DNA of 44,948 nt from a virus. This document shows, piece by piece, positions 5,549 through 42,347 of the stretch. A program made the translations under genes and the position numbers. The stretch is taken from positions 1 through 44,948 of IMG/VR virus record IMGVR_UViG_3300037261_000140. One strand, 5' to 3'. Position 1 is the first letter of the stretch. Each line of letters starts with the position of its first letter. The notes beneath the pieces are model-generated. The model made no database searches. It saw only the letters and a list, made by a program, of their open reading frames with translations, and was not told where the DNA came from.

Positions 5549-8304
5549 GCGGCTGACTGAACCTGGGATACGTTAATACTGATCGGGATGAAATAGATGG
5601 CAGTAGCCAGCTTGATTTCAACCGCAACAGCCATTTCAGGCCCATTGATGGTGACCTTTTGGTTTTTATAACCAAGAGGAGCATCGGAACTGCCGGCGAT
5701 TAACTTCAACCGTTTGTAGCCGTCCATTTTTTGAGCCAAGAAGCTCAAAGCGGTAGCTGCATCGACATCGGCCAAACTCTTACCAACGAACGTGCTTTGG
5801 AAGCTCGCGGCCAGGTCGAGGGCCAAGATATCGGAACAGTAAACTGCTTGGATGCTGTTATAAACGAAGTTGGTATCAACTCCGTAGGTTGTTTGGTCAC
5901 TGACCCAACGATTGCCGGCTGTATCCTGTGTTAGGAACAGAAGACCTGCGCTGAGTGCATCTTCAACATCGCCGGGGCTGCCGGAATCAAATCCAGTAGG
6001 ATCGGTGAAGCTGATGACGTTTGCATATTTGTTGACGATGGCTTTATAGAATCCACCGGCTTGCATTCCAGCGGCCACACAAGCGGCGTACCAAGGCATG
6101 AAACTGGTAATAACCCCTTTGGAGTTAACCTGAGTCGGCCTTTGCATGGTAAGCGAGCAACGGTAGTTCGCGAGACTTTGAGCCTGCGCTTTAGCATTCG
6201 CATAACTTCCCCAGAAGGAAAGAATACAAATGCGATTCTTTTTGAGTTTTGGTGTGCTAAACTCGATACAATGCGATTTCGTCGCAGCATTGATCGCGGC
6301 GATTGTATAGGTCGAACTTGCATCGGTAAGCCCGGCGATGATATCAGCCGAAGCATCTTCTGAGAAAAGAGGAACGATGATGTTGACATCAATCGTAGCC
6401 AATAACTCGATAGCTTGGATGATTGTCGCAGCAGTAGTTCCACCTCTGGCGCCGCCAGCAAGAAACGCTGGGTTTACCATAGGATTGGGCAATCCGGCTG
6501 TAGCTATCATATTGAATTGCACTTTAGTCGCAACAGCAACATCTTGAGCGAATTCATAAGCTGCATCTTTGATTCTTCCAGGTTGACCAGCGGCCACAGT
6601 AGAAGCGATACCAACGGCGGCAACAGCGTCCAAAGCAGAAGGAGGTAACTGACTAGCTGAAGAATCAGCTGAAGCAGAATATCCCGTTTGAGAATTTAAG
6701 AATGCGGCTAAATCTCCGATTGTGGAATACTGAGCGAGATTAACGCTTAAGTTAGCGCCTGATCCGCCAGTAACGGCTGTGGTCAACAAGTTAGTTGTTT
6801 TGTTGATGGTAACCGTTCCAGAAGTACCTTGATAACCAAGATAAAGGGCAAAGGTTGTTGGAACGTCGATTGTTTGGCTGTAGCCAATATCGGTTCTGTT
6901 GATTTGAACTTCAACTTCGGCTTCTTGAGAAGCGACGTTGATACCGGGAGCTAAACCTAAAGCGGCCAGATCTCCGGGGGTAGAATCGATCAATTCAAAA
7001 CTTCTTCCCCAGCCACTTCTATAAGGAGCAGGGTTAGCGGCCATGGTCAATTGTACAGAGTTCGGAGCGGCACCGGCTGAAGCCACAAGGCCAGCAGGAA
7101 GTACGGCGTTAAGCTCGACAATTAATTCGGCGATATTCCCGTGGGCTGGCGTATTGATTATGCCAGGAGGGAAACCTGTGATAGTATTTGTCGGAGAAGA
7201 ACCTACGTCTCCGCTGATAACAGAGAAACCAGTGTTGGTTACAGCTGAAGCGCCCAAGAGAGCGAAATTTCCGGCTGATGCCAATAATGGAGCTTGTTGA
7301 GCATTCACGATAGTCGCAGCACTTAAGGAGATAGCTCCAGATAGAGCGATTAAGCTACCGTTGACAGTTCCACCAGAAGTATCCGTGATCGAGGTTTGAG
7401 CGATGACGTTACCATTGAAGGTACCGATAAATGCAGAGTTGAGGGTAGCAGAGCTACCAACGATGAAGTACACGTTTTTAGCAAGTGCTCCACCAGTTAA
7501 ATTGATGACTGGAATTCCAGTTGAACCAGTAACGAGGGTACTTGCAGTTTTGATAACGAATACATCGGTAGCCGTACCGTTAAAGGTAAGTGCTCCGCCG
7601 GCATCTAAAGTAGCCGCGCCAGTATTGTAATAACCGGCAGATAATGTTTGTCCATCGAGAACAGCAGGGATCGCGACATAACCGCCGTGACCAGCCAAAG
7701 ATGTATAGGCCGCCAAAGCATCAGCTTGAGCCGTTGCAGCAGAAAGACCGCCGCTGGATGAACTAAGGGTGACCACAGTAGCAGGTCCGCCATTCAATCG
7801 AACAGAAAAAGTATCTCCGTTTAAGGCAGCGCCGAAAGCGGTGATAGTATTACCAGCAAAAGAAGGAGGAGTTTCAGTTTCTAAAGAGGTGACTTGATAA
7901 CGGTAGAGATTTCCGTTTGTTCCGAAGTTGTTATCAAGAATTGTTGCATAGTCGGTGTCAACAAGGGCCGAAGCTTGAGAACTGGAGTTTGTTTTTACGA
8001 TGTAAATTTTGTTGGCCGAGCCGACGATATCTGCATCGCCTGACGGAGCAGAGAAAGCCGCGAAGGCATCAACAATGGGTCCTGAAACATATTGTTGCAT
8101 GACCTTATCGAGTTGATCGGGCGTAAAGGAGTTATTTTTCAACTGAAACGAGGGATCAGTGAAAACATCTCCGCCATCGGCTTCACCAAAGATAACTACG
8201 TTACCAGACGAACCAAGTCCAACTGGCTGGCTTTGAACCGTAATTTCCGGGTATGCGCCGGGAATATTAGTATTTAAAAAACTTGTTACTTCTCTTTGAG
8301 ACAT
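5545..8304 (-). CDS. tail sheath protein with inserted, permuted DUF3494-like domain
   Basis: 919 aa. The N terminus (NIPGAYPEITVQSQPVG, then GNVVIFGEADGGDVF) and the long C-terminal part (ATIIQAIELLATIDVNIIVPLF, ANYRCSLTMQRPT, VYCSDILALDLAASFQSTFVGK, KLATAIYFIPISINVS) match the contractile-tail sheath plan: an N-terminal exchange arm, variable domains and a conserved C-terminal core. Residues about 181-386 (7764-7147) are not sheath-like. They contain the DUF3494 ice-binding-protein signature in swapped order: DALAAYTSLA, LDGQTLSAGYY, INLTGGALAKNVYFIVG, FNGNVIAQTSI and SLIALSGAISL come first, followed by NFALLGASAV, VISGDVGSSP and NTITGF. The insertion splits another sheath domain (RLNGGPATVVTL before, NIAELIVELNAVLPAG after). 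At 919 aa it is larger than many sheaths. The domain should be displayed on the outer tail surface. The tube gene follows, and a 107-aa gene precedes it. Confidence 0.9.
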   Translation of the reverse strand: MSQREVTSFLNTNIPGAYPEITVQSQPVGLGSSGNVVIFGEADGGDVFTDPSFQLKNNSFTPDQLDKVMQQYVSGPIVDAFAAFSAPSGDADIVGSANKIYIVKTNSSSQASALVDTDYATILDNNFGTNGNLYRYQVTSLETETPPSFAGNTITAFGAALNGDTFSVRLNGGPATVVTLSSSSGGLSAATAQADALAAYTSLAGHGGYVAIPAVLDGQTLSAGYYNTGAATLDAGGALTFNGTATDVFVIKTASTLVTGSTGIPVINLTGGALAKNVYFIVGSSATLNSAFIGTFNGNVIAQTSITDTSGGTVNGSLIALSGAISLSAATIVNAQQAPLLASAGNFALLGASAVTNTGFSVISGDVGSSPTNTITGFPPGIINTPAHGNIAELIVELNAVLPAGLVASAGAAPNSVQLTMAANPAPYRSGWGRSFELIDSTPGDLAALGLAPGINVASQEAEVEVQINRTDIGYSQTIDVPTTFALYLGYQGTSGTVTINKTTNLLTTAVTGGSGANLSVNLAQYSTIGDLAAFLNSQTGYSASADSSASQLPPSALDAVAAVGIASTVAAGQPGRIKDAAYEFAQDVAVATKVQFNMIATAGLPNPMVNPAFLAGGARGGTTAATIIQAIELLATIDVNIIVPLFSEDASADIIAGLTDASSTYTIAAINAATKSHCIEFSTPKLKKNRICILSFWGSYANAKAQAQSLANYRCSLTMQRPTQVNSKGVITSFMPWYAACVAAGMQAGGFYKAIVNKYANVISFTDPTGFDSGSPGDVEDALSAGLLFLTQDTAGNRWVSDQTTYGVDTNFVYNSIQAVYCSDILALDLAASFQSTFVGKSLADVDAATALSFLAQKMDGYKRLKLIAGSSDAPLGYKNQKVTINGPEMAVAVEIKLATAIYFIPISINVSQVQSAA

Positions 8305-11563: not shown

Positions 11564-12355
11564 TTAGCCGCCGTACTTTGCTAAGATTTGTGGAAGGACA
11601 TTTGTTTCCCATTCATTCAAGGCCCATTGATATGCTGCTTCAAAGAAATTCTGAGCTTTATAGCCTGGATGAATAAATTTTCCTTCACTGGCACCGCTGT
11701 CGGTCACAGTGCGGAATGTCATAATTTCTCTTTTTACTGATGTTTTTCCAGTCGCCTTATCTTGTACTTCTCTTTGATAGACGCTGACTCGGGCTAATGC
11801 AGGAGTGTTGGCTTTTGATTTTAAAGAACGGCCAACAAAGCTACTTTTATCTGGAATGCTGAATTCATGAAGTTTTCCAAGCCGAGGATTGCCGCCCTTT
11901 TTCTGAATTGTACTCCAAGGAATTTTTCTTGCGGCCATCTCTGATCTAATTTGGCTGACCAAACTTTGAGCATAGGCATTATTTTTGCTAGGAGATTTTT
12001 CATGATGGAAAGGAACAGCAAGACTTTTATGGCCAGTACGAGGATTTACTGTGGCCTTACTACTTTTTAAAATATCATCTTTCATGTCTCTGGGGCCGGC
12101 GCCGTCTTCAATCCAAAGAGCACTTTCGTCAATTGTGAATAGGTGAACGTGTGGGGCAATTTCTGCAACGTGAAAAGCTTTTTCAAATATTTCTCGGCTA
12201 TGATCTAGTTTTTCTTCTGCCATTTCTGTGATTCGGGCATGGGTCATCGTAGCAAGAGCATCTACTCCATTTAGAATGTCTTGAGTGATCTCTTCTTTGG
12301 CTTCTCGAAAAGCATCGGCAATAGAATTTACGTCAATCTCTAGCTTAATACCCAT
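11564..12355 (-). CDS. HK97 gp10-like neck/tail-completion protein
   Basis: 263 aa. The N-terminal half is helical (NSIADAFREAKEEITQDILNGVDALATMTHARITEMAEEKLDHSREIF). The C terminus carries the characteristic phrase of HK97-gp10-like proteins: a serine/glycine strand (MTFRTVTDSGASEGKFIHPGYKAQNFFEAAYQWA) in which IHPG-x-K-A-x-x-FF precedes the last helix. Such proteins sit at the head-tail joint and help terminate or stopper the tail. The start ATG at 12355 overlaps the last base of the upstream mCpol-like gene, suggesting coupled translation, and the next structural gene begins one base after its stop codon. Confidence 0.7.
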   Translation of the reverse strand: MGIKLEIDVNSIADAFREAKEEITQDILNGVDALATMTHARITEMAEEKLDHSREIFEKAFHVAEIAPHVHLFTIDESALWIEDGAGPRDMKDDILKSSKATVNPRTGHKSLAVPFHHEKSPSKNNAYAQSLVSQIRSEMAARKIPWSTIQKKGGNPRLGKLHEFSIPDKSSFVGRSLKSKANTPALARVSVYQREVQDKATGKTSVKREIMTFRTVTDSGASEGKFIHPGYKAQNFFEAAYQWALNEWETNVLPQILAKYGG

Positions 12356-14532
12356 TATTTTTTATTCTCTTTAGAACCCTCTTTTACTGGAACTCCAGAT
12401 GGACCCATGACGACGCCTTTTTTGCGGTCGATCCAACGAGTCTTGCCGGTAACTTTGTCTGTAGTTTTTTGTTGACCTTTAAGGTTGATAGAACCTTCTT
12501 GCAAAGGAGTACGGGCCACATGTTTAGTGGTCGCACTGGTAGGCAATTTACCCGCGCCGCTACCGGCACCGGGTTTACTTCCTTTTGGGGGCTCGTTAGC
12601 TGCACCCTCCTTGGGGGCAGCCGATTTGTCGTCTTTTTTAGGGGGGAATCCACCTTTACCTTCGGTCTTCTCTTTACCTTCAGGTTTTTCCTTTTCGCCC
12701 GGTTTGGCGTCTTTCCCATCCTTTTTTGGCGGAAAGCCACCTTCTTTCCCATCCTTTTCTGGCGGGAAACCACCTTCACCAGCTTGTTGTTCTTGTCCAG
12801 GCTGTTCCTGACCGCCCTTACCACAAGTAGGACACGGTTGTTCTTGGCCTTGTTCTTGACCAGGAATTTCTTCAGAACCATCGCTGAGACCTAACATTTT
12901 AGCCATTTCAATCATGGCCAAAAGCATTGACACGCAGGAGGTGTAAAGTTCTGGAGCTTGAGCAGAAGCTTGTTCCAGAGCTTGTTTGTTATTTTTAAAA
13001 CCTTCAAGAGCTTGGCCAATCATTTGTTTGACCTTTTCTTCTTGCTCTTGATCTTGGCCGGCATCGAGGCCATCTTGCATGACGCCTTCAATTTCTTCTG
13101 CGCCTGGCTCACCAGCTTGCTGTTCTTGAGCTTGCTGTTGTTGCATGGCAGCGTCATTTTCTTGGTCGGCAGGGGATTGTCCGCCTAAACCATTATCCTG
13201 AGTGTCTTCGGGATTGCCATTTTCAACAGTAACTCCGCCTTCAGGTCCGCCATCCATTCCAACATCGCCTGGAACATTTTGTTCTTTGAAACCATCAGGA
13301 CGACTGACGTTTCCTTCCATCTCGGTACTTACAGGCATTTGAGTGTTGTCAACGGCATTCAACTGTTGTTGTTGAGTTGCCGCATCAGCAGGAGGATTAT
13401 CTACTGCCTCTTGAACGACTTCACTAGCCTGCGCTTTTGCTTGGCCGCATGACGGGCACACTTCGCTATGCTCTTCTTGGCCTTGCGGTGCAGCCTCTTT
13501 ACCTTGCGGTGGAGCTTCTTTAGGAGCTTCTTTACCTTTTTCATTTTTCACATCCTTTTCAGGTTTCTTTTCAGTTGCCATATCCACACTTTCTTGAGGC
13601 TCACCTTTTTTAACAGGAGCCTTAAATTCATCTTTCGAGGGATCATTACCAGTAGCTTCAGCCTTCTCCCGAGGAGTAGACATTTCTTTACCAATCACAT
13701 GTTTATTGGCTTGACCAATTTCTTCTTCTTGCTGTTTACTGACCGTTTTATCGGGCAGTTGTCTTTCTTCAGCCTTTGCATCTCCGGGCCGGGCATCAAC
13801 TTTACCTTCTACCGCTTTGCTGGCGGCTTCTTGGGTTGTTTTTGCCGATGCTTCTTGAGGAGATTCTGTAGTAACTGCGCCAGCTTGCGCATTTTCATCG
13901 GGGTTTTCTGCCGATGTTTTGGCCGATGTTGTGGCGGATTGTTCACTGGCTTCCCGTTCCTGTTTTTGTTCAGGGGACTCAGTAGCTAACTGAGCAGGAG
14001 GCTGGCCAGTTTTTTCCTTCTTAATTTGATCTGTCTGCCAAGAGTCTTGTTGAAACTGTTGGTCTTCTTTTCCTGGGCTTAAATATGCTTCTCCAAGCTT
14101 TTGTTCTTCTTCAGAACCCTGACCTTGTGCTACCCTATCTTGAGTGGCTTGGATATCGGATTCAACTGTTTGGTCATACATGACCACTTGATTTTTACCG
14201 CGAAACTTCGCGACCATGAGAGACTTGCCGGCCTGTGAAAGATTTTGGCCTACTCCAACCGACATTGTAAGGTTGGTAGAAAATTCATAGTCTCTGCGCA
14301 GTTCTTCAATATTTTCAACTGCTTCAGCGGGAAGAGAGAAACAGCCTTCGTCTCCGCCGCCACTTATAACTTGTCCATTATGTTCTTGGACCCATTTTTT
14401 AACAACTTCGTGTCCAAGATTTATTCTGGCAGATATTTCACTGAGCGCACCTGCGTCATCCGCAAGTATCGCACGGCCAACAAGCCGTCCGGCGTTGTCG
14501 CCGTCATATGCCAGAAAGATTTGGTTATTCAC
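12355..14532 (-). CDS. Cas10/mCpol-GGDEF-like nucleotidyl cyclase domain with long disordered tail
   Basis: 725 aa from a GTG start (14532), with AAGGA six bases upstream. Residues about 1-122 form a palm-type polymerase/cyclase domain: FLAYDGDNAG (D10, D12) resembles the first metal site of Cas10 and mCpol proteins; GGGDEG at 58-63 matches the GGD(D/E) turn; TMSVGVG and KFRGKNQVVMYD match the end of GGDEF-type folds. The expected reaction is NTP to a cyclic (oligo)nucleotide, not proven. Residues about 123-650 are low complexity (Gln, Glu, Pro, Lys, Gly), with two CPxCG knuckles (CPSCGQ near 365, CPTCGK near 590) and GGFPPKKDGK repeats. The basic C terminus (GKTRWIDRKKGVVMGPSGVPVK) may be a separate small module. 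It sits in the late operon between a zinc-ribbon gene (8-base overlap) and the gp10-like gene, so the enzyme may be virion-associated. A degenerate, non-catalytic palm is the alternative. Confidence 0.7.
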   Translation of the reverse strand: MNNQIFLAYDGDNAGRLVGRAILADDAGALSEISARINLGHEVVKKWVQEHNGQVISGGGDEGCFSLPAEAVENIEELRRDYEFSTNLTMSVGVGQNLSQAGKSLMVAKFRGKNQVVMYDQTVESDIQATQDRVAQGQGSEEEQKLGEAYLSPGKEDQQFQQDSWQTDQIKKEKTGQPPAQLATESPEQKQEREASEQSATTSAKTSAENPDENAQAGAVTTESPQEASAKTTQEAASKAVEGKVDARPGDAKAEERQLPDKTVSKQQEEEIGQANKHVIGKEMSTPREKAEATGNDPSKDEFKAPVKKGEPQESVDMATEKKPEKDVKNEKGKEAPKEAPPQGKEAAPQGQEEHSEVCPSCGQAKAQASEVVQEAVDNPPADAATQQQQLNAVDNTQMPVSTEMEGNVSRPDGFKEQNVPGDVGMDGGPEGGVTVENGNPEDTQDNGLGGQSPADQENDAAMQQQQAQEQQAGEPGAEEIEGVMQDGLDAGQDQEQEEKVKQMIGQALEGFKNNKQALEQASAQAPELYTSCVSMLLAMIEMAKMLGLSDGSEEIPGQEQGQEQPCPTCGKGGQEQPGQEQQAGEGGFPPEKDGKEGGFPPKKDGKDAKPGEKEKPEGKEKTEGKGGFPPKKDDKSAAPKEGAANEPPKGSKPGAGSGAGKLPTSATTKHVARTPLQEGSINLKGQQKTTDKVTGKTRWIDRKKGVVMGPSGVPVKEGSKENKK

Positions 14533-22090: not shown

Positions 22091-22498
22091 TTAGGAAACT
22101 GGAACCCAGGCAGTACCGTGCCAAAGTTGAGCATGGGAAACTCCGGGGGCTACCGATACTCCGCCAACGGTGAAGGCTGTCGAGCCAACATTAACCATGT
22201 GGGCGGTTCTTACGATTGCCGGATTGGAAGGGGTAGGCAGGCTAAGGGTTTGGCCAGCGGTTGTCTGGTTAACCAAAAAAGCCGCTGCGCTATCAACCGT
22301 TGCAGGAGCAGTACCGATTGGTCCACCACTGGTAAGGTTAGCGACAGGCTGAGCAGGCGATCCGAGACCGGGCTGAGCAGTAGCCAATTGTAAAAGATGA
22401 GAACCTAAACCGATATCTCCGCTCGCAGGAGCAGCGGAATAAATCGCATCTAGGGCAGGTGCCATGATTTGAGCATCTTGAAAAAAACTATTAGGCAT
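22091..22498 (-). CDS. short fibre/decoration-like virion protein (135 aa)
   Basis: The N-terminal part (MAPALDAIYSAAPASGDIGLGSHLLQLATAQ) resembles that of the 175-aa fibre-like protein (GHIGLGDLLIEM). The C-terminal half is beta-rich (FLVNQTTAGQTLSLPTPSN, HMVNVGSTAFTVGGVSVAPGVSHAQLWHGTAWVPVS); a closing phrase of this kind (hydrophobic strand, W-x-G-x-x-W) is common at the C termini of head fibres and decoration proteins. It lies after the DUF3494 gene and before a strong terminator, at the end of the capsid gene group, so head surface attachment is likely but not proven. Confidence 0.55.
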   Translation of the reverse strand: MPNSFFQDAQIMAPALDAIYSAAPASGDIGLGSHLLQLATAQPGLGSPAQPVANLTSGGPIGTAPATVDSAAAFLVNQTTAGQTLSLPTPSNPAIVRTAHMVNVGSTAFTVGGVSVAPGVSHAQLWHGTAWVPVS

Positions 22499-22544: not shown

Positions 22545-23513
22545 TTATGCTTCGGTGATACCACTGATTAATGTAATTGCGGTCTGAGCATATAGAGCAC
22601 CATGAACCGTAGTAGTAGCTTGAGTTGCAATTGAAGTTGCAGCCAAGATAACGCCTCTAAATGTTGAAGCTGTTTTCAAAGTTACTGCGCCGGTAATGGC
22701 CCAGAAAACATTTTGCGGCAAAATTCCACCAGTTAAATTTACTGCGATTCCAGCTTCTAAATTAAGAGTTCCAGAAATCTGCATAACGATTGAATCTAAT
22801 GGTCCGCCATGAATTGTGATGGGGCCAGTGATATCAACAGGGGTAGACCATTTGTAAATTCCAGGAACAAGCGTTTGGCCGTTAAGAGTTCCGCCGCCTA
22901 ATCCAACGACTGGGGCCGGGACAACTAACCCTTGAGCAAAAGTGTATGCCGCTTGCATGTCAGTGATTGCCTGGGTCAAATTAGCGGGAGTCGGGGCTGC
23001 GTTGTCAGGAGAATCTACGTTTCCAGAAACTTCAGCAGCACTACCATGGGCTCCACCGAGGTTCGGAGTATAAGTAAATCCAGTGATTGCGGTATGTGAA
23101 ATTGGACTTACTGCGATATTTCCCGTAACTGTGGCACCAGAGGCATTACTGATTCCTGCTTCTGATAAAATTCGATAGTTTCCAGCAGTGAGTAAAGGAA
23201 CAATGCCAGGGCCGTGAGCAGAATTGATTGCGCAATAGGCTCCAATGTTGTTCACGATATCCATTGCATATGGTTTGCTTGCAAACCCATCGACCATTAC
23301 GGCGATGTCATGCGGAGTAAGAAGTTTTTGACAAAGGATAGCTGCCTGAATGTTTAAGGCAACTTGTTTATCGCCCATTGCATCGATCAGTCTCGCCATG
23401 GTATTTTTGGAAAGAACAGATCCGTTTTGAACTGCAAGTGCGAATTCTTTACCGGCAGGTTTGCTTGCCAGGGCGTCTATAATATCCAAAACTGTGTCAT
23501 TCATTAGGGTCAT
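22545..23513 (-). CDS. virion-type protein with C-terminal DUF3494 ice-binding-like domain
   Basis: 322 aa. Residues about 1-100 form a helical phage-specific N-terminal domain (DIIDALASKPAGKEFALAVQNG; note the repeated phrase ASKP at 16 and 78). Residues about 103-322 match DUF3494, the bacterial and fungal ice-binding beta-solenoid: LLTAGNYRILSEAGISN, VTGNIAVSP, AITGF, an alpha-helix phrase (LTQAITDMQAAYTFA), LGGGTLNGQTLVPGIYKWST, VNLTGGILPQNVFWAITGAVTL, ASTFRGVILAATSIA and ALYAQTAITLISG. The order is canonical and near full length. No signal peptide is present. It follows the capsid and zinc-ribbon genes and has its own AATCTT box, so it is probably a late virion protein, for example a head fibre. 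Ice binding is only one possible role; DUF3494 proteins also act as adhesins. Confidence 0.85.
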   Translation of the reverse strand: MTLMNDTVLDIIDALASKPAGKEFALAVQNGSVLSKNTMARLIDAMGDKQVALNIQAAILCQKLLTPHDIAVMVDGFASKPYAMDIVNNIGAYCAINSAHGPGIVPLLTAGNYRILSEAGISNASGATVTGNIAVSPISHTAITGFTYTPNLGGAHGSAAEVSGNVDSPDNAAPTPANLTQAITDMQAAYTFAQGLVVPAPVVGLGGGTLNGQTLVPGIYKWSTPVDITGPITIHGGPLDSIVMQISGTLNLEAGIAVNLTGGILPQNVFWAITGAVTLKTASTFRGVILAATSIATQATTTVHGALYAQTAITLISGITEA

Positions 23514-23563
23514 AAAAGCTCCTTAAATTACGACGCACTTATGCATGCGCCGGGGTGCGTGTC

Positions 23564-23994: not shown

Positions 23995-25395
23995 TTATGA
24001 ACCGCCGGGGGTTAATTGACCCGTGATGTTCTCAAGGAGTACGTTCTTACGAGGTTGGAAAACAGCGAGAGACAAGAATCTGAAATGTGCTTCGGGGAGC
24101 GACAAGTCATTGATTGCGAGTTTCAATTTGCTGTAGGGAGCTAATTGAGCGATGCTCATGGTGTTCCCTTGAACCAAGAATCCAGTTACAGATCCACCTT
24201 GACGATTTCCGAGATCGGAGAACACTGGGTTACCGATGCTTTGAGAAATCTTACCGATGAATTTGGCTGAAGCAGCAGACCCGTTGGCATCACTACGATA
24301 CACGTTGTAATACTGGGCACCGGCTACGGCGGTAATGGTTACGGTAACCTTGTCACCGGCAGCAGCGACCACTTGGGAAGCTGAAGCAGAAGGGAGCGAC
24401 TCACCACGCATACTGACGGCAGTAACGTAGTAGAAATATGTCGCAGCCTGGAGCAGCGAACCAGCTGCACCTGCATCGGCAAGAGCGGGAGCAGCGGCTT
24501 GGGCCGGGCTACCTGAACGAGCGCGAGCGGGACGAGTTTTACCAGAGAGGAAACGAGACGCTTCGAGAGAAACGATTGCACTTGAGGTCCATTGGGTTCT
24601 CAAATGAGCGCCAGTGGCTTCTTGAGGAGAGCCGGCGAGCATAATACGTTCTTTCGCATGCGCGATTTTGTTGTATTGAGAGAGGGTGATGGGATCGAGA
24701 ACGAGTCTGTCAGCCGCACCCATGTTCATTGCTGAACGAACCGAACTGTCTTCGATGATGGACTGTGCTAACGCACCGCCAACAGAAAGAATAACAGTTT
24801 GATCTGAGCCGTACTCAGCAAACATCAAATCTTGAGTGTTTGATTGAGCGTCGGATTGACGAACTTGTTGATCGAGGCCGATCATGTTGGGGACTTTGGC
24901 TACCGCGAGAGGGTTACCATCAAATACTCCAGCATTGGAGAAATCGGATTGACCACGGAAAAGGTCAAATTCAATATCCCCCGCGAGTTTCATCGCAGCG
25001 TCAGCAGAGGCTCTGTCTTCGGCTTTAACACCGTCGAAAGCACCAATCATGTTCGCAGCAACAGTGACTCGACGAGTCGTGCTGTAATATGACATCGGGA
25101 CCACGGCACGAACATAGTTCGTTGTGTCTTCTTCACCGATTCCACCTTCAAATTGGGCAGAACCTCCGAAGATACCATAGTCAAGTTGACGGTTGAACTG
25201 ATGGAGTTGAGACTTAACGTCTTTACTCGGCAGCATCTTTTGCAACTTGATATGACTGTCGTCAAATGTAACATTATGCATCACTGGCGATAGATCTTCT
25301 ACCATTAGCGCGGCACCTTGGGCAAGCTGACCAGGAGCGGCATTGTAACTGCCTGCTTCTAGGGCTTTCATGAGAGACTGAAGTTGTTCAATCAT
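23995..25395 (-). CDS. major capsid protein, HK97 fold with Ig-like insertion
   Basis: 466 aa, coded directly after the scaffold-like gene and before a strong terminator. The N-terminal part (DLSPVMHNVTFDDSHIKLQKMLPSKDVKSQLHQFNRQLDYGIFGG) and the part that follows (FEGGIGEEDTTNYVRAVVPMSYYSTTRRVTVAANMIG, then DIEFDLFRGQSDFSN and DPITLSQYNKIAHA) have the order of the N-arm, E-loop and P-domain of large-phage HK97-fold capsid proteins. Residues about 300-405 (TYFYYVTAVSMRGESLPSA, VTVTITAVAGAQYYNVYRSDANG) form an Ig/FN3-like domain inserted before the last A-domain strands, as in SPO1/Twort-type capsids, and would stick out from the capsomer. The C terminus (RFLSLAVFQPRKNVLLENITG) returns to the core. 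It assembles the prohead shell. Confidence 0.9.
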   Translation of the reverse strand: MIEQLQSLMKALEAGSYNAAPGQLAQGAALMVEDLSPVMHNVTFDDSHIKLQKMLPSKDVKSQLHQFNRQLDYGIFGGSAQFEGGIGEEDTTNYVRAVVPMSYYSTTRRVTVAANMIGAFDGVKAEDRASADAAMKLAGDIEFDLFRGQSDFSNAGVFDGNPLAVAKVPNMIGLDQQVRQSDAQSNTQDLMFAEYGSDQTVILSVGGALAQSIIEDSSVRSAMNMGAADRLVLDPITLSQYNKIAHAKERIMLAGSPQEATGAHLRTQWTSSAIVSLEASRFLSGKTRPARARSGSPAQAAAPALADAGAAGSLLQAATYFYYVTAVSMRGESLPSASASQVVAAAGDKVTVTITAVAGAQYYNVYRSDANGSAASAKFIGKISQSIGNPVFSDLGNRQGGSVTGFLVQGNTMSIAQLAPYSKLKLAINDLSLPEAHFRFLSLAVFQPRKNVLLENITGQLTPGGS

Positions 25396-29415: not shown

Positions 29416-29770
29416 AATTGAAGATGTTGCAGCCGCCTGTCATGAGATAAATCGAGCATATTGCCGGCTTATCGGTGACAATACCCAGGTTTCCTGGAAG
29501 AATGCGCCAGAGTGGCAGAGAACGTCTGCGATCAATGGTGTCAAATTTCACTTGGCCAATCCAAATTCACAGCCTAGCGATTCTCATGAGAGTTGGTCTA
29601 AAGAAAAGGTAGCCGACGGGTGGTCATTTGGCCCGGTAAAAGATCCAGCTAAGAAACAGCATCCATGCCTAGTTCCTTTTTCAAATTTGCCGCTACATCA
29701 ACAGATGAAGGACTTTATCTTTTTGTCTACTGTAAGGGCTGCGGAAGCCATTATTTTGGAGGATTCATGA
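29402..29770 (+). CDS. RyR-domain protein
   Basis: 122 aa from ATG 29402, with GAAGGGAA upstream. The sequence is a nearly complete RyR domain: ACHEINRAYCRLIGD (helix with H-x-x-N-R), VSWKNAPEWQRTSAINGVKFHLAN, HESWSKEKVADGWSFGPVKD (W...K..DGW.(Y/F)GP.KD), then HPCLVPFSNLPLHQQMKDFIFLSTV (HPC.VP(Y/F).LP..Q..KD). In ryanodine receptors these repeats are structural; in bacteria and phages their ligand is unknown, and a nucleotide-related role has been suggested. The stop codon overlaps the ligase ATG (ATGA), indicating coupled expression with the ligase. Confidence 0.8.
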   Translation: MTESEIEDVAAACHEINRAYCRLIGDNTQVSWKNAPEWQRTSAINGVKFHLANPNSQPSDSHESWSKEKVADGWSFGPVKDPAKKQHPCLVPFSNLPLHQQMKDFIFLSTVRAAEAIILEDS

Positions 29771-30942
29771 AAACATGGCCTACTCTTTATAAAAAGACCT
29801 CGACGGGTGCCATTCAAAAATGGGACATCGGGGTGGAAGAAATTGAATTCGGCAACGCACACAAAAACGAGGGCTCCTTGCCAGCGATAGTTACGATTTA
29901 TGGCCAATTAGGAACTGACTCACCGCAAAGAACAGAGGACATAATTAGGGAAGGGAAAAATGCCGGCAAAAAGAATGCCACAAATGCCTACCAACAGGCC
30001 GACGCTGAAGCCCAGGCCAAATGGGAAAAACAGAAGAAAAAGGGCTACGTTGAAACTATCGCAGCGGCAGAGGCCGGCGAATTAGATGAACTAATCGAAG
30101 GCGGCATAGTTCCTATGTTGGCCCACAAATTCTCAGAGCAAGGTCACAAGATCAAGTATCCCGCCTATGCTCAACCAAAACTTGACGGTATCCGCTGTAT
30201 CGCGATCATTAAAGAAGGTAAGTGTACTCTTTGGTCCCGGACCAGGAAGCCGATCACTTCCATGCCCCATATAGTAGCTGAGATCGAAAAAATTGGTTTT
30301 TTACAAAATACGATTTTGGATGGTGAACTGTATAACCATGAATTCAAAAGCGATTTTGAAAAAATCGTGTCCGCCGTTCGTAAGCAGCAGGCCGAAGAAG
30401 GCTATCTCAATGTTCAGTACCACATTTACGATACTGTAAGGGATCAAGATTTCGGTAGTCGAACAATGTTCCTGAGAAGTCTGTTCGGTATCCATGAAAA
30501 GAACCATGGAGAGTTGAAATATCTTAAACGAGTCCAAACTCTAGAAGTTTGCAATGAATCAGAACTTATGGACGCCTTCGATTTGTTCCGCTCTCAAGGT
30601 TACGAAGGCGCAATGGCCCGAAATGACCATAGCCCCTATGTCAACAAGCGTTCATATGATCTTTTGAAAATAAAGGAGTTTGACGATGCGGAATTCAAAA
30701 TTGTCGGAGTTGAAGAAGGTCGTGGAAAGCTTGCCGGGCACGCAGGTAGTTTTGTGTGTCGGACGACAGATGGGAAAGAGTTCCTTGCAAAGATGCGTGG
30801 CGAAACATCTGAACTCAAACGGTACTTTGAAGACCGAGCCTTGTGGGACGGAAAATTGCTTACCGTGCAGTACCAAGGACTTACAGGAGCGCAGGGCGTA
30901 CCTCGATTTCCTGTTGGGGTTAGGATCAGGGAAGCCGAATGA
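29767..30942 (+). CDS. ATP-dependent DNA ligase
   Basis: 391 aa from ATG 29767 with a strong GGAGG site. The N-terminal 50 residues (MKTWPTLYKKTSTGAIQKWDIGVEE, IVTIYGQLGT) look like a WGR-type domain, which binds DNA ends in PARPs and some ligases. The nucleotidyltransferase core has motif I AQPKLDGIR (Lys 138, forms the AMP adduct), motif III-type LDGELYNH, YEGAMARN and DLLKIK (motifs IV and V), then an OB-fold tail with GKEFLAKMRG and LLTVQYQGLT. It seals nicks in phage DNA. The WGR-ligase order is a little unusual. ATGA overlaps both at its start and with the 36-aa gene at its end. Confidence 0.85.
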   Translation: MKTWPTLYKKTSTGAIQKWDIGVEEIEFGNAHKNEGSLPAIVTIYGQLGTDSPQRTEDIIREGKNAGKKNATNAYQQADAEAQAKWEKQKKKGYVETIAAAEAGELDELIEGGIVPMLAHKFSEQGHKIKYPAYAQPKLDGIRCIAIIKEGKCTLWSRTRKPITSMPHIVAEIEKIGFLQNTILDGELYNHEFKSDFEKIVSAVRKQQAEEGYLNVQYHIYDTVRDQDFGSRTMFLRSLFGIHEKNHGELKYLKRVQTLEVCNESELMDAFDLFRSQGYEGAMARNDHSPYVNKRSYDLLKIKEFDDAEFKIVGVEEGRGKLAGHAGSFVCRTTDGKEFLAKMRGETSELKRYFEDRALWDGKLLTVQYQGLTGAQGVPRFPVGVRIREAE

Positions 30943-31049: not shown

Positions 31050-31192
31050 CAACTAAGAAAGAATGGTTTTTATGTTTCGTGTTCGCCATTGCAATCAACC
31101 TGGCGCTTATTTATCTGTATGGAAGATTCATCAAGCCCGAGATTGATGGCGCAGCCAAGGGCATGGCAATCATGATACTCAATCATCATTAA
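31046..31192 (+). CDS. 48-aa membrane peptide
   Basis: Translationally coupled to the 36-aa gene (ATGA). There is one membrane segment at residues about 8-25 (FLCFVFAIAINLALIYLY), then a short soluble tail (IKPEIDGAAKGMAIMILNHH). Type and size suit a small holin- or spanin-like or toxin-like peptide, but nothing specific can be assigned. Its stop overlaps the stop of the convergent endolysin gene (31189-31192). Confidence 0.45.
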   Translation: MTTKKEWFLCFVFAIAINLALIYLYGRFIKPEIDGAAKGMAIMILNHH

Positions 31193-31743
31193 ACGTGAAA
31201 TTCTCGCCCACTCGGGCCGGGAGCCCTAAGATCCAAATGAACCCAAGTCGTGGTTCCAAATTCCATCCTGATCCCAAGCTCTTCTAGTTGGGGCCTCAAA
31301 ATGTCTTTTACTTGATCTATCGTGAGATTTGGTCCACAGTCAAAGTCAACCGCGAGGCTCATACTGTGAACATCGGCGCCGGTAGGGAGCAAAATACTCT
31401 GTTCGATATTATATTGTTTGCTGCGGAACATACAGTGGATATTTAGAGGAAACCCAAGGATCTCCCGAACCTGATCTAACTTAACGCAAAGAGTCATAAG
31501 TTGATTTGGGTCGAACCCATCTTCCGGGGTAGCCAGTCGGTTCCAGTTATGGAGCAAAAGGCAGTTGTTGACTGAGAAGTACTTTGACACCATGCATTCA
31601 GGATTCGTCCAGTCCAGAGTGTTCATCTCGGGCGGCGCGAGTGGCGCCGGGGCCGGCGCGGCCTGCACAGGCGGGTCCTGAATCTTTTGTTGAATTAATG
31701 CCAAAGCGGCTCTAAATAACTGGGTCCAAATTGGGTCTGCCAT
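31189..31743 (-). CDS. endolysin: M15-type peptidase
   Basis: 184 aa. The core matches M15_3 D-Ala-D-Ala-type peptidases: MFRSKQYN (Arg 107, an S-G-Y-R-S-x-x-Y-N-like site), HSMSLAVDFD (His 126 and Asp 133, usual pattern H-x-x-G-x-A-x-D; here Gly is replaced by Ser) and TWVHLDLR (His 169). These are the expected zinc ligands. The N terminus has a Pro/Ala linker (VQAAPAPAPLAPPEM) after a hydrophobic helix (LFRAALALIQQ) that could be a weak membrane or targeting segment. It would cut peptidoglycan cross-links at lysis. AATCTT and TGATATAG signals are upstream, and the ATG follows AGAGGAA. Convergent with the plus-strand membrane peptides. Confidence 0.8.
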   Translation of the reverse strand: MADPIWTQLFRAALALIQQKIQDPPVQAAPAPAPLAPPEMNTLDWTNPECMVSKYFSVNNCLLLHNWNRLATPEDGFDPNQLMTLCVKLDQVREILGFPLNIHCMFRSKQYNIEQSILLPTGADVHSMSLAVDFDCGPNLTIDQVKDILRPQLEELGIRMEFGTTTWVHLDLRAPGPSGREFHV

Positions 31744-40574: not shown

Positions 40575-42347
40575 TTATGGTCTTTCGTTTGCTTCGTTAA
40601 CGTATTGATCGGCCTGTGAAGTCGCCCGGCCAAATTCAGCGTCGGCCTTAGCTTCAGACCGTTCAAACATATCATCTCGGGGGTGACAGACGATTCCGCC
40701 GCACGTTCCCAGTATGGTCGCAATGCTTACTGCGTTACTTAAAGATTCCTCCACAGCCTTCGTCGCGTCAAATAGGCCTAATGACTCAGCTTTTCCGTAC
40801 TGCTGATTTTCGATGTCATAAACCAGATGGGGGTTATCTATCAGTTTTCTAAGGACTTCTTGGGCCTGTTCGGGGTTGTAACCGGCGTTATCCAGAAGCT
40901 TATTCGGCAACGCAAGGAGGGACGGCATGAGGACTTCCCTGGCCGGATCTCCGGCCTGAAGCTCAGTCGCCAGCTTAAGGAACATGTCGAGGGCGATACG
41001 GCATCCGCCGGGCAATGCACCGTGTTTGATTGCACTCCGAACGGCGCATACAGCGTCTTCGCATCTATCGTGAGCTTCTTTGAGTTCGCCATTTGATCCC
41101 CCAAAAATGGTCAGTTTTGCAATACCATTGGTTATTTTGCCAAGACGTTCTTCTAACCACATCTTATCGGCATCACTTTCTGCGCCGGCTATCATGGTTT
41201 TTAGTTCATCGGCCCTGATTTCAACAAGTGTCGGATCAGGATTACCAATGACCGTGGAACGAAATCGGTAACATTCAAAAGATTCTGGGCCAACTCCAAG
41301 ATCGCCCATTGTTGCATTTTGGACTGGATCTTTCATGCTGAATACTTTGGCCCCAGTGAAGGCAGCCAAGTCGTGCAAGAAATGGAGTTGACTATTGGTG
41401 AACTGATGCATTGGCGTAACCAGAGGAACAATGTTCATAGTTGTTGGATTATTCATGTTAAACGCCAACTGCGTCAGGACCGACTCACTAAAACCGTGAG
41501 CCACGACAACAATGTTTTTGAAGTCACTGTTGCCTTCTTCTACATACTTTCTACCGATGCCATCGAATAGACCTTGAAAACTTATGAGGTCATTAACCAT
41601 GCCATCATAAAGGATGTACAAAGGTTTTTCTAAATAACAGCGTTGATTACCTTGGTCATTAATGAAGGCCGTATGGAATTTTCCGATACTCTCTTCGTAG
41701 CCCATGGGAATAGGGAATCCATCGATCCGTTCGACCTTGTATCCGGACTTTCCGGATAGTTCGCGAATGGTAACGTGAGAAGAGTCACCGTATCCGACTT
41801 CTTCAAAGGCTTTGATAACGGCATCGGCCATATCGGTGTCACCATTGGCACTGATAGTAGCTACCATCTTGAGCATGCCTTGATTCTCAATTCCAACTGC
41901 GATACTGCGAGATTGGATGTAGGGAATCAAGATCTCTCTGGTGACCTTGTTAATTCTTCGTGCGGCCTTCTGTGGGCTATATTGTGGATTTTCTTTGCAA
42001 AAATCAAATAGGTTGGAAATAATGTTGTAGGATAAAATAGTTGCGGTGGTCGTACCGTCGCCGGCCTCTGAAGCAGTTCTTTTGGCCGCATCACGGGCTT
42101 GCTCGGTAATCAAGTGTTCATATGGATCGATTGCGCCAAGACTATCGAAAACGGTAACACCGTCTTTGGTATTTTTGTTTCCGATACCATTGAAATCACT
42201 CTCGATTAGAATGTTAAAACCGCCGGGGCCAAGTGTTCGACCGACCGCTTCAGAAACTCGATGCATTGTATCGAGAATTTTCTTCTGCAATTGTTTTTTA
42301 TCGATCATGTAAATCTTGGGGGAAGTTTTCGCTTTTCTATAAGACAT
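40575..42347 (-). CDS. groEL-like: GroEL-like chaperonin
   Basis: 590 aa, group I/phage chaperonin. Motifs: SEAVGRTLGPGGFNILIE (nucleotide-binding loop, residues 33-50), KDGVTVFDSLGAIDPYEHLITEQARDAAKRT, GDGTTTATIL (96-105; catalytic Asp region), and a C-terminal equatorial part with GALPGGCRIALDMFLKLA and IVCHPRDDM. The apical part (residues about 190-370) is divergent from host GroEL. No GroES gene is visible here and the C terminus lacks the GGM tail. Giant phages such as EL and OBP encode similar single-ring or double-ring chaperonins that fold phage proteins without GroES. AGGAGG and a TGATATAAG -10 signal lie upstream, divergent to the helicase. The symbol is descriptive only. Confidence 0.85.
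   Translation of the reverse strand: MSYRKAKTSPKIYMIDKKQLQKKILDTMHRVSEAVGRTLGPGGFNILIESDFNGIGNKNTKDGVTVFDSLGAIDPYEHLITEQARDAAKRTASEAGDGTTTATILSYNIISNLFDFCKENPQYSPQKAARRINKVTREILIPYIQSRSIAVGIENQGMLKMVATISANGDTDMADAVIKAFEEVGYGDSSHVTIRELSGKSGYKVERIDGFPIPMGYEESIGKFHTAFINDQGNQRCYLEKPLYILYDGMVNDLISFQGLFDGIGRKYVEEGNSDFKNIVVVAHGFSESVLTQLAFNMNNPTTMNIVPLVTPMHQFTNSQLHFLHDLAAFTGAKVFSMKDPVQNATMGDLGVGPESFECYRFRSTVIGNPDPTLVEIRADELKTMIAGAESDADKMWLEERLGKITNGIAKLTIFGGSNGELKEAHDRCEDAVCAVRSAIKHGALPGGCRIALDMFLKLATELQAGDPAREVLMPSLLALPNKLLDNAGYNPEQAQEVLRKLIDNPHLVYDIENQQYGKAESLGLFDATKAVEESLSNAVSIATILGTCGGIVCHPRDDMFERSEAKADAEFGRATSQADQYVNEANERP

Follow-up and report, generated by a model that had tools for sequence, protein, structure and literature searches.

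DUF3494 domains in a capsid-proximal protein and, circularly permuted, in the tail sheath of a phage: a probable head-decoration adhesin

What role could an ice-binding-type protein have when its gene lies among the head genes of a phage? The question is raised by an ORF in the 44,948-nucleotide stretch of viral DNA analysed here (IMG/VR record IMGVR_UViG_3300037261_000140; hereafter the window), which carries genes for capsid, sheath, portal, terminase and GroEL proteins. The ORF starts with ATG and encodes 322 amino acids (Table 1). It is separated from the major capsid gene by 482 bp on the same strand, with one 93-residue ORF in between, which agrees with the location beside the capsid gene given in an earlier note on this DNA. 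The capsid gene product shares 51% identity with that of Myxococcus phage Mx1, a lead towards Myxococcota as possible hosts, and 26-29% with those of SPO1-like phages.

Table 1. Coordinates of the features discussed, in positions of the window
Feature	Position	Strand	Evidence
322-aa head-region protein, helical N-domain and C-terminal DUF3494	22545..23513	(-)	ORF, Pfam, AlphaFold, Foldseek
Helical N-domain of six helices (residues 1-99), proposed to anchor the protein to the capsid	23217..23513	(-)	AlphaFold, conservation, hhalign
Canonical-order DUF3494 (PF11999) beta-solenoid, residues 103-322	22548..23207	(-)	Pfam, phmmer, AlphaFold, Foldseek
Pfam match within DUF3494, residues 115-317	22563..23171	(-)	Pfam-A
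Shine-Dalgarno-like AAGGAG, 5 nt before the ATG	23519..23524	(-)	Sequence
Major capsid protein	23995..25395	(-)	PHROG match (phrog_752, E=4.6e-42)
93-aa Cys-containing ORF between the capsid and 322-aa genes, conserved in L005	23587..23868	(-)	ORF list, comparison
135-aa downstream ORF with no family match; at a guess, a further small decoration protein	22091..22498	(-)	Pfam, PHROGs
Tail sheath protein, 919 aa	5545..8304	(-)	phrog_279, E=6.2e-22; fold nearest phage 812 sheath
Circularly permuted DUF3494 in sheath loop, about residues 183-386	7147..7758	(-)	Profile order, empty sites
N-terminal DUF3494 segment (residues 341-383) moved to the C-terminal end of the insert	7156..7284	(-)	Profile order

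Several other genes of the window were annotated in passing. A 725-residue protein (12355-14532, minus strand) in the late gene region has an N-terminal mCpol domain (PF18182, E=1.4e-14) and weak PADLOC matches to Cas10/CARF-HEPN-mCpol systems, a CRISPR-polymerase-like domain that is odd among phage structural genes. The GroEL-type chaperonin lies at 40575-42347 (minus strand; phrog_5725, E=1.6e-82), an ATP-dependent DNA ligase at 29665-30942 (plus strand; phrog_114, E=2.2e-86), and a possible endolysin with a weak Peptidase_M15_3 match at 31189-31743 (minus strand).

A two-domain protein near the capsid gene

The C-terminal part of the 322-residue protein is, as the earlier note had read it, a full DUF3494 domain in canonical order, a fold with which microbes living in the cold hold on to ice. 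The PF11999 (Ice_binding) profile matches with E=1.3e-51 and 175.7 bits, far above its curated cut-off of 28.7 bits, covers profile positions 1-204 of 208, and is the sole Pfam-A family in the protein; a search with the same profile gave no match in any of 14 control genomes. Among PDB sequences, phmmer aligned residues 101-318 with 9LI0 and 9LHN (E=1e-49), structures of the ice-binding protein of Ca. Cryosericum odellii. The AlphaFold2 model (45-row alignment, mean pLDDT 92.4) shows a discontinuous beta-solenoid flanked by the long helix (residues 175-195) that belongs to this fold. All 31 PDB chains matched by Foldseek at E<=0.001 are ice-binding or antifreeze structures of the DUF3494 type, the best at TM scores of 0.96-0.97 of the target and 1.0-1.2 Å, with 0.96 for 9LI0. 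Between the window and L004, the domain has a dN of 0.11 and a dS of 1.13, indicating purifying selection, and the N-terminal domain, with a dN of 0.28 and saturated dS, is under weaker constraint.

The N-terminal domain is predicted to comprise helices at residues 5-15, 18-30, 36-46, 49-59, 67-76 and 82-99. No signal peptide or membrane helix was found in the protein, whose best 19-residue Kyte-Doolittle mean is 1.33 overall and 0.71 in the N-terminal region, in keeping with the earlier description of this domain as helical and unlike a secretion signal. Searches with the domain gave no match below E=0.01 in Pfam or PHROGs and no fold match of its own in the PDB or BFVD, where the matches of the model were all to DUF3494.

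Related phages were collected at 70 loci by their capsid protein. A scan with the whole 322-residue protein returned three relatives, among them a 613-residue protein (L006) composed of the same N-domain, Chitobiase/Fn3-type repeats and DUF3494, and more were recovered with the N-domain as query. From these scans of IMG/VR relatives, the N-domain is conserved in at least 13 related phages, and its combination with DUF3494 near the capsid gene occurs in more than 10. The proteins recovered with the N-domain profile that bear DUF3494 are 322-710 residues long, and their spacers of Chitobiase/Fn3-type repeats range in length from zero to over 400 residues. Their genes lie 0.5-5.8 kb from the capsid gene, some of them divergent or on the opposite strand.

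Weaker matches to the N-domain were found in small proteins of about 100-220 residues that are encoded near the capsid gene and have no DUF3494. Its first 36 residues align with a group of three such proteins at an hhalign probability of 94.8. The gene for one of these N-domain-like proteins in a relative is only 69 bp from the capsid gene, and one small protein has a weak match to a head-fibre family (phrog_6994, E=0.0027). The N-domain therefore looks like an anchor that carries differing outer domains, with genomic position and the short profile match pointing to the capsid as its probable binding partner.

A permuted copy in the sheath and further copies in relatives

A profile search located a second DUF3494 copy in the sheath ORF, as the earlier note had claimed. 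The order of this copy, a point absent from that note, is circularly permuted: profile positions 28-207 come first and are followed by about 1-45. The surrounding protein was modelled at pLDDT 83. The same permuted insertion is present in the sheaths of three other phages (G001, G002 and G018), and in 27 related sheaths without the insert '..VTLS' runs directly into '..IAELVTELN'. Published face assignments for DUF3494 place the N-terminal strands at the solenoid's top, with the late strands close by (PMC12337378). With the strands so placed, a chain in which the C- and N-termini are joined and which opens before the helix would presumably run through the solenoid without a break, and its new ends would come to lie together. 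The sheaths of L093, L099, L100 and L110 carry different additional segments in this variable region or close to it, so the region looks like one that tolerates insertions.

The permuted form is not restricted to sheaths. It also occurs in two head proteins (L013:5398-6969 and L029:11422-12993), where it is internal to a beta-rich domain, in contrast to the C-terminal canonical copy of the window's head protein. Conversely, a different sheath protein (L216:2-2839) carries a canonical DUF3494 at another site, which would be another way of arriving at this kind of decoration.

Additional copies were found in long ORFs. The 171-kb G002 has four: besides those in its head and sheath proteins, one is in a fibre-like ORF (L118:1-6153; at least 2051 residues) and one in a baseplate-like ORF (L118:10279-13074; at least 932 residues). 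These two ORFs are named by the look of their sequences, with no PHROG match for either. G092 has three copies within two long structural-looking ORFs. It comes from the same metagenome as G018 (IMGVR_UViG_3300042090), and the two have complementary DUF3494 genes and might be parts of one phage. Overall, PF11999 was found in 14 of 71 searched records besides the window, which is no estimate of frequency because many of the records are fragments and some were chosen for carrying PF11999. A lipoprotein-like DUF3494 on a viral contig (L209:1-810) was set aside, since it groups with Polaromonas and is probably a bacterial gene. A tblastn search of a phage collection gave no match to the head or sheath copy, and the matches obtained in a plasmid collection were to ordinary cellular ice-binding proteins.

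We consider it likely that the 322-residue protein is a modular head-decoration adhesin resembling Hoc of phage T4, with DUF3494 replacing the Ig-like domains and no homology to Hoc implied. Under this model, the helical N-domain would anchor the protein to the capsid, and the C-terminal solenoid would point outward as an adhesion module, as do the Ig-like domains of T4 Hoc. A module of this kind would also be exposed on the sheath, where the circularly permuted version would fit into a loop, and relatives would carry it on fibre-like and baseplate-like proteins as well, which might render the entire virion surface adhesive. The data show the identity of the domain, its fold, the architecture of the protein, its gene neighbourhood and conservation, the empty sheath sites and the permutation; from several lines of evidence we infer incorporation into the virion, capsid anchoring and an adhesive function. 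Virion decoration is favoured by the lack of a secretion signal together with the capsid, portal, terminase and sheath genes in the same window, and by the presence of DUF3494 in proteins that are sheaths beyond doubt, where four phages have it in permuted form and L216 in canonical form. It is weakened by the finding that the gene can be divergent from the capsid gene or up to 5.8 kb away from it. The further copies in fibre-like and baseplate-like proteins of relatives make the decorating role that had been suggested earlier the likely one.

Two other roles were weighed against the same observations. The product might be a soluble auxiliary protein made during infection that shields the host or the lysate from freezing; viral PF11999 genes have been taken as host cryoprotection genes in an Arctic virome study (PMC11515562), and some bacterial DUF3494 proteins without a signal peptide may be intracellular (PMC9957290). 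Fusion to a conserved phage-specific domain, with no export signal, argues against such a protein, and free cryoprotection makes no sense of homologous modules built into sheath, fibre-like and baseplate-like proteins, which leaves this role most improbable. Alternatively, the solenoids might act as cement, touching their neighbours and protecting the particle, for example from freeze-thaw, with no outside ligand. Cementing is common among decoration proteins (PMC7602432), and tail stabilisation has been proposed for additional sheath domains (PMC9230969). We find cementing very unlikely here, given that 27 related sheaths work with no insert and that a spacer of such variable length, absent in some proteins and over 400 residues long in others, is more in keeping with an extended fibre than with a cementing contact.

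Origin of the viral domains

The earlier note proposed that the domain was acquired once and spread inside the genome, and that this could be examined by a phylogeny with bacterial DUF3494 proteins and the sheath insert. For such trees, permuted domains were put back in canonical order by a script. In the careful tree, built from 72 domains, 11 rows of head copies form a clade with support of 100/100, and the copies from sheath, baseplate and fibre proteins (11 rows) form a separate 100/100 clade, which groups with a different set of cellular sequences. Two acquisitions are therefore favoured, with within-genome spread in the second clade only.

A single acquisition followed by spread of all copies within genomes is disfavoured by these two clades. 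Forcing both viral groups into one clade cost 35 lnL units in the careful tree (p-AU 0.0575), and the corresponding AU test on the quick tree gave p=0.114, so that a single acquisition falls short of formal rejection. In addition, the head and sheath copies of the window are only 34% identical to each other.

The six permuted copies group together at 97/97 in the careful tree, so that permuted DUF3494 apparently had a single origin in that tree. The quick tree split them, and keeping them together there raised lnL by 28.7. Within one record (L029/G018), the permuted copies in head and sheath share 72% identity, which fits a permuted module that moves within genomes.

Possible ligands and relation to known systems

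If the modules are displayed on the virion, the next question is what they bind. The solenoid face used by ice-binders is conserved in its residue composition, in that the flat b-face with small, Thr and Ser residues is kept, a trait that is unspecific to ice. In b-face columns 2 and 4, the putative ice-binding ones, the share of A, G, S, T and N is 95% and 93% in head copies, 96% and 90% in the other viral group, and 80% and 83% in the cellular set. Because the composition is alike in cellular proteins of many settings, and DUF3494 itself is present in many habitats, ice is not singled out.

One reading is that DUF3494 recognises a carbohydrate on the host surface or in biofilm and helps adsorption, ice playing no part. 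This differs from the proposed head-decoration adhesin solely in the ligand, since a virion adhesin is common to both. Surface carbohydrates are the presumed ligands of extra virion domains such as Ig-like ones (PMC9230969, PMC10385173), DUF3494 is known in substrate-binding as well as ice-binding proteins (PMC12337378), and copies on fibre-like and baseplate-like proteins would suit such a role. On the other side, the literature surveyed yielded no glycan ligand of PF11999, and the conserved face is the same as in ice-binders. We give host recognition through EPS or a similar carbohydrate slightly less than an even chance. Among the ligands themselves, polysaccharide, EPS or a cell surface likewise falls a little short of an even prospect, ice or an ice-grain surface is a tentative candidate, and anything else seems unlikely.

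A broader proposal is that large phages related to Mx1 and SPO1 coat head, sheath, baseplate and fibres with DUF3494 domains that bind ice or ice grains, the permuted form being the insertable one. We regard this as doubtful. If true, the phage would be retained at those places in ice or frozen ground where its hosts are most concentrated, comparable to the adherence of phages to mucus. The distribution of copies over the particle suggests that the entire virion may serve to attach to a surface in the environment. The finding opens phage adhesion to ice or the surfaces of frozen soil to direct testing, for which one soluble domain is enough.

Modular decoration and extra sheath domains are already known kinds of phage structure (PMC9230969, PMC10385173). 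DUF3494 as a displayed module, and its permuted form, appear to be new relative to the literature searched: within openly accessible papers, no report was found of DUF3494 with a phage or of an ice-binding domain with a tail sheath. The findings add a non-Ig adhesion module to the phage decoration repertoire and provide a naturally occurring circular permutant of DUF3494 that can be compared cleanly with empty sites.

Like T4 Hoc and other modular decoration proteins (PMC10385173), the proteins described here combine a conserved anchor-type domain with a variable string of display domains and are encoded with head genes. They differ in that the anchor is N-terminal, the display domain is DUF3494 rather than Ig-like, and capsid binding is deduced; kinship to Hoc was found neither by sequence (N-domain against Pfam and PHROGs) nor by fold (model against the PDB and BFVD). 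The sheath resembles multi-domain (type 3) tail sheath proteins in having a conserved core near that of phage 812 and an added beta-rich domain. Here that domain is a permuted DUF3494, and the survey of such sheaths, in which additional domains are located away from the tail tube, mentions no ice-binding domain (PMC9230969).

Compared with the DUF3494 ice-binding proteins FfIBP, LeIBP, TisIBP, ColAFP and that of Ca. Cryosericum odellii, the window's domain has the same full-domain fold (TM 0.96, 1.1 Å), identity of up to 46%, and the small, Thr and Ser columns of the b-face. The phage protein is distinguished by the missing secretion signal, the fused phage-specific helical domain and the head-gene context, and the sheath copy by its circular permutation and its position inside a loop. 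The fold matches in BFVD were exclusively to DUF3494 proteins of a giant virus (Hyperionvirus), with no phage entry matched; these share the fold but come from a giant virus of eukaryotes and are 19-22% identical. The only phage PF11999 found in the literature searched is in the Arctic virome study, where members of the same Pfam family in virus contigs are called auxiliary metabolic genes (PMC11515562); S-SKS1, which that study names, gave no PF11999 match. There the proposed role is host cryoprotection, whereas in the present phages the domains are parts of virion structural proteins, and an ice-binding-type fold in such proteins, instead of an auxiliary gene, changes how PF11999 genes in viromes are to be read.
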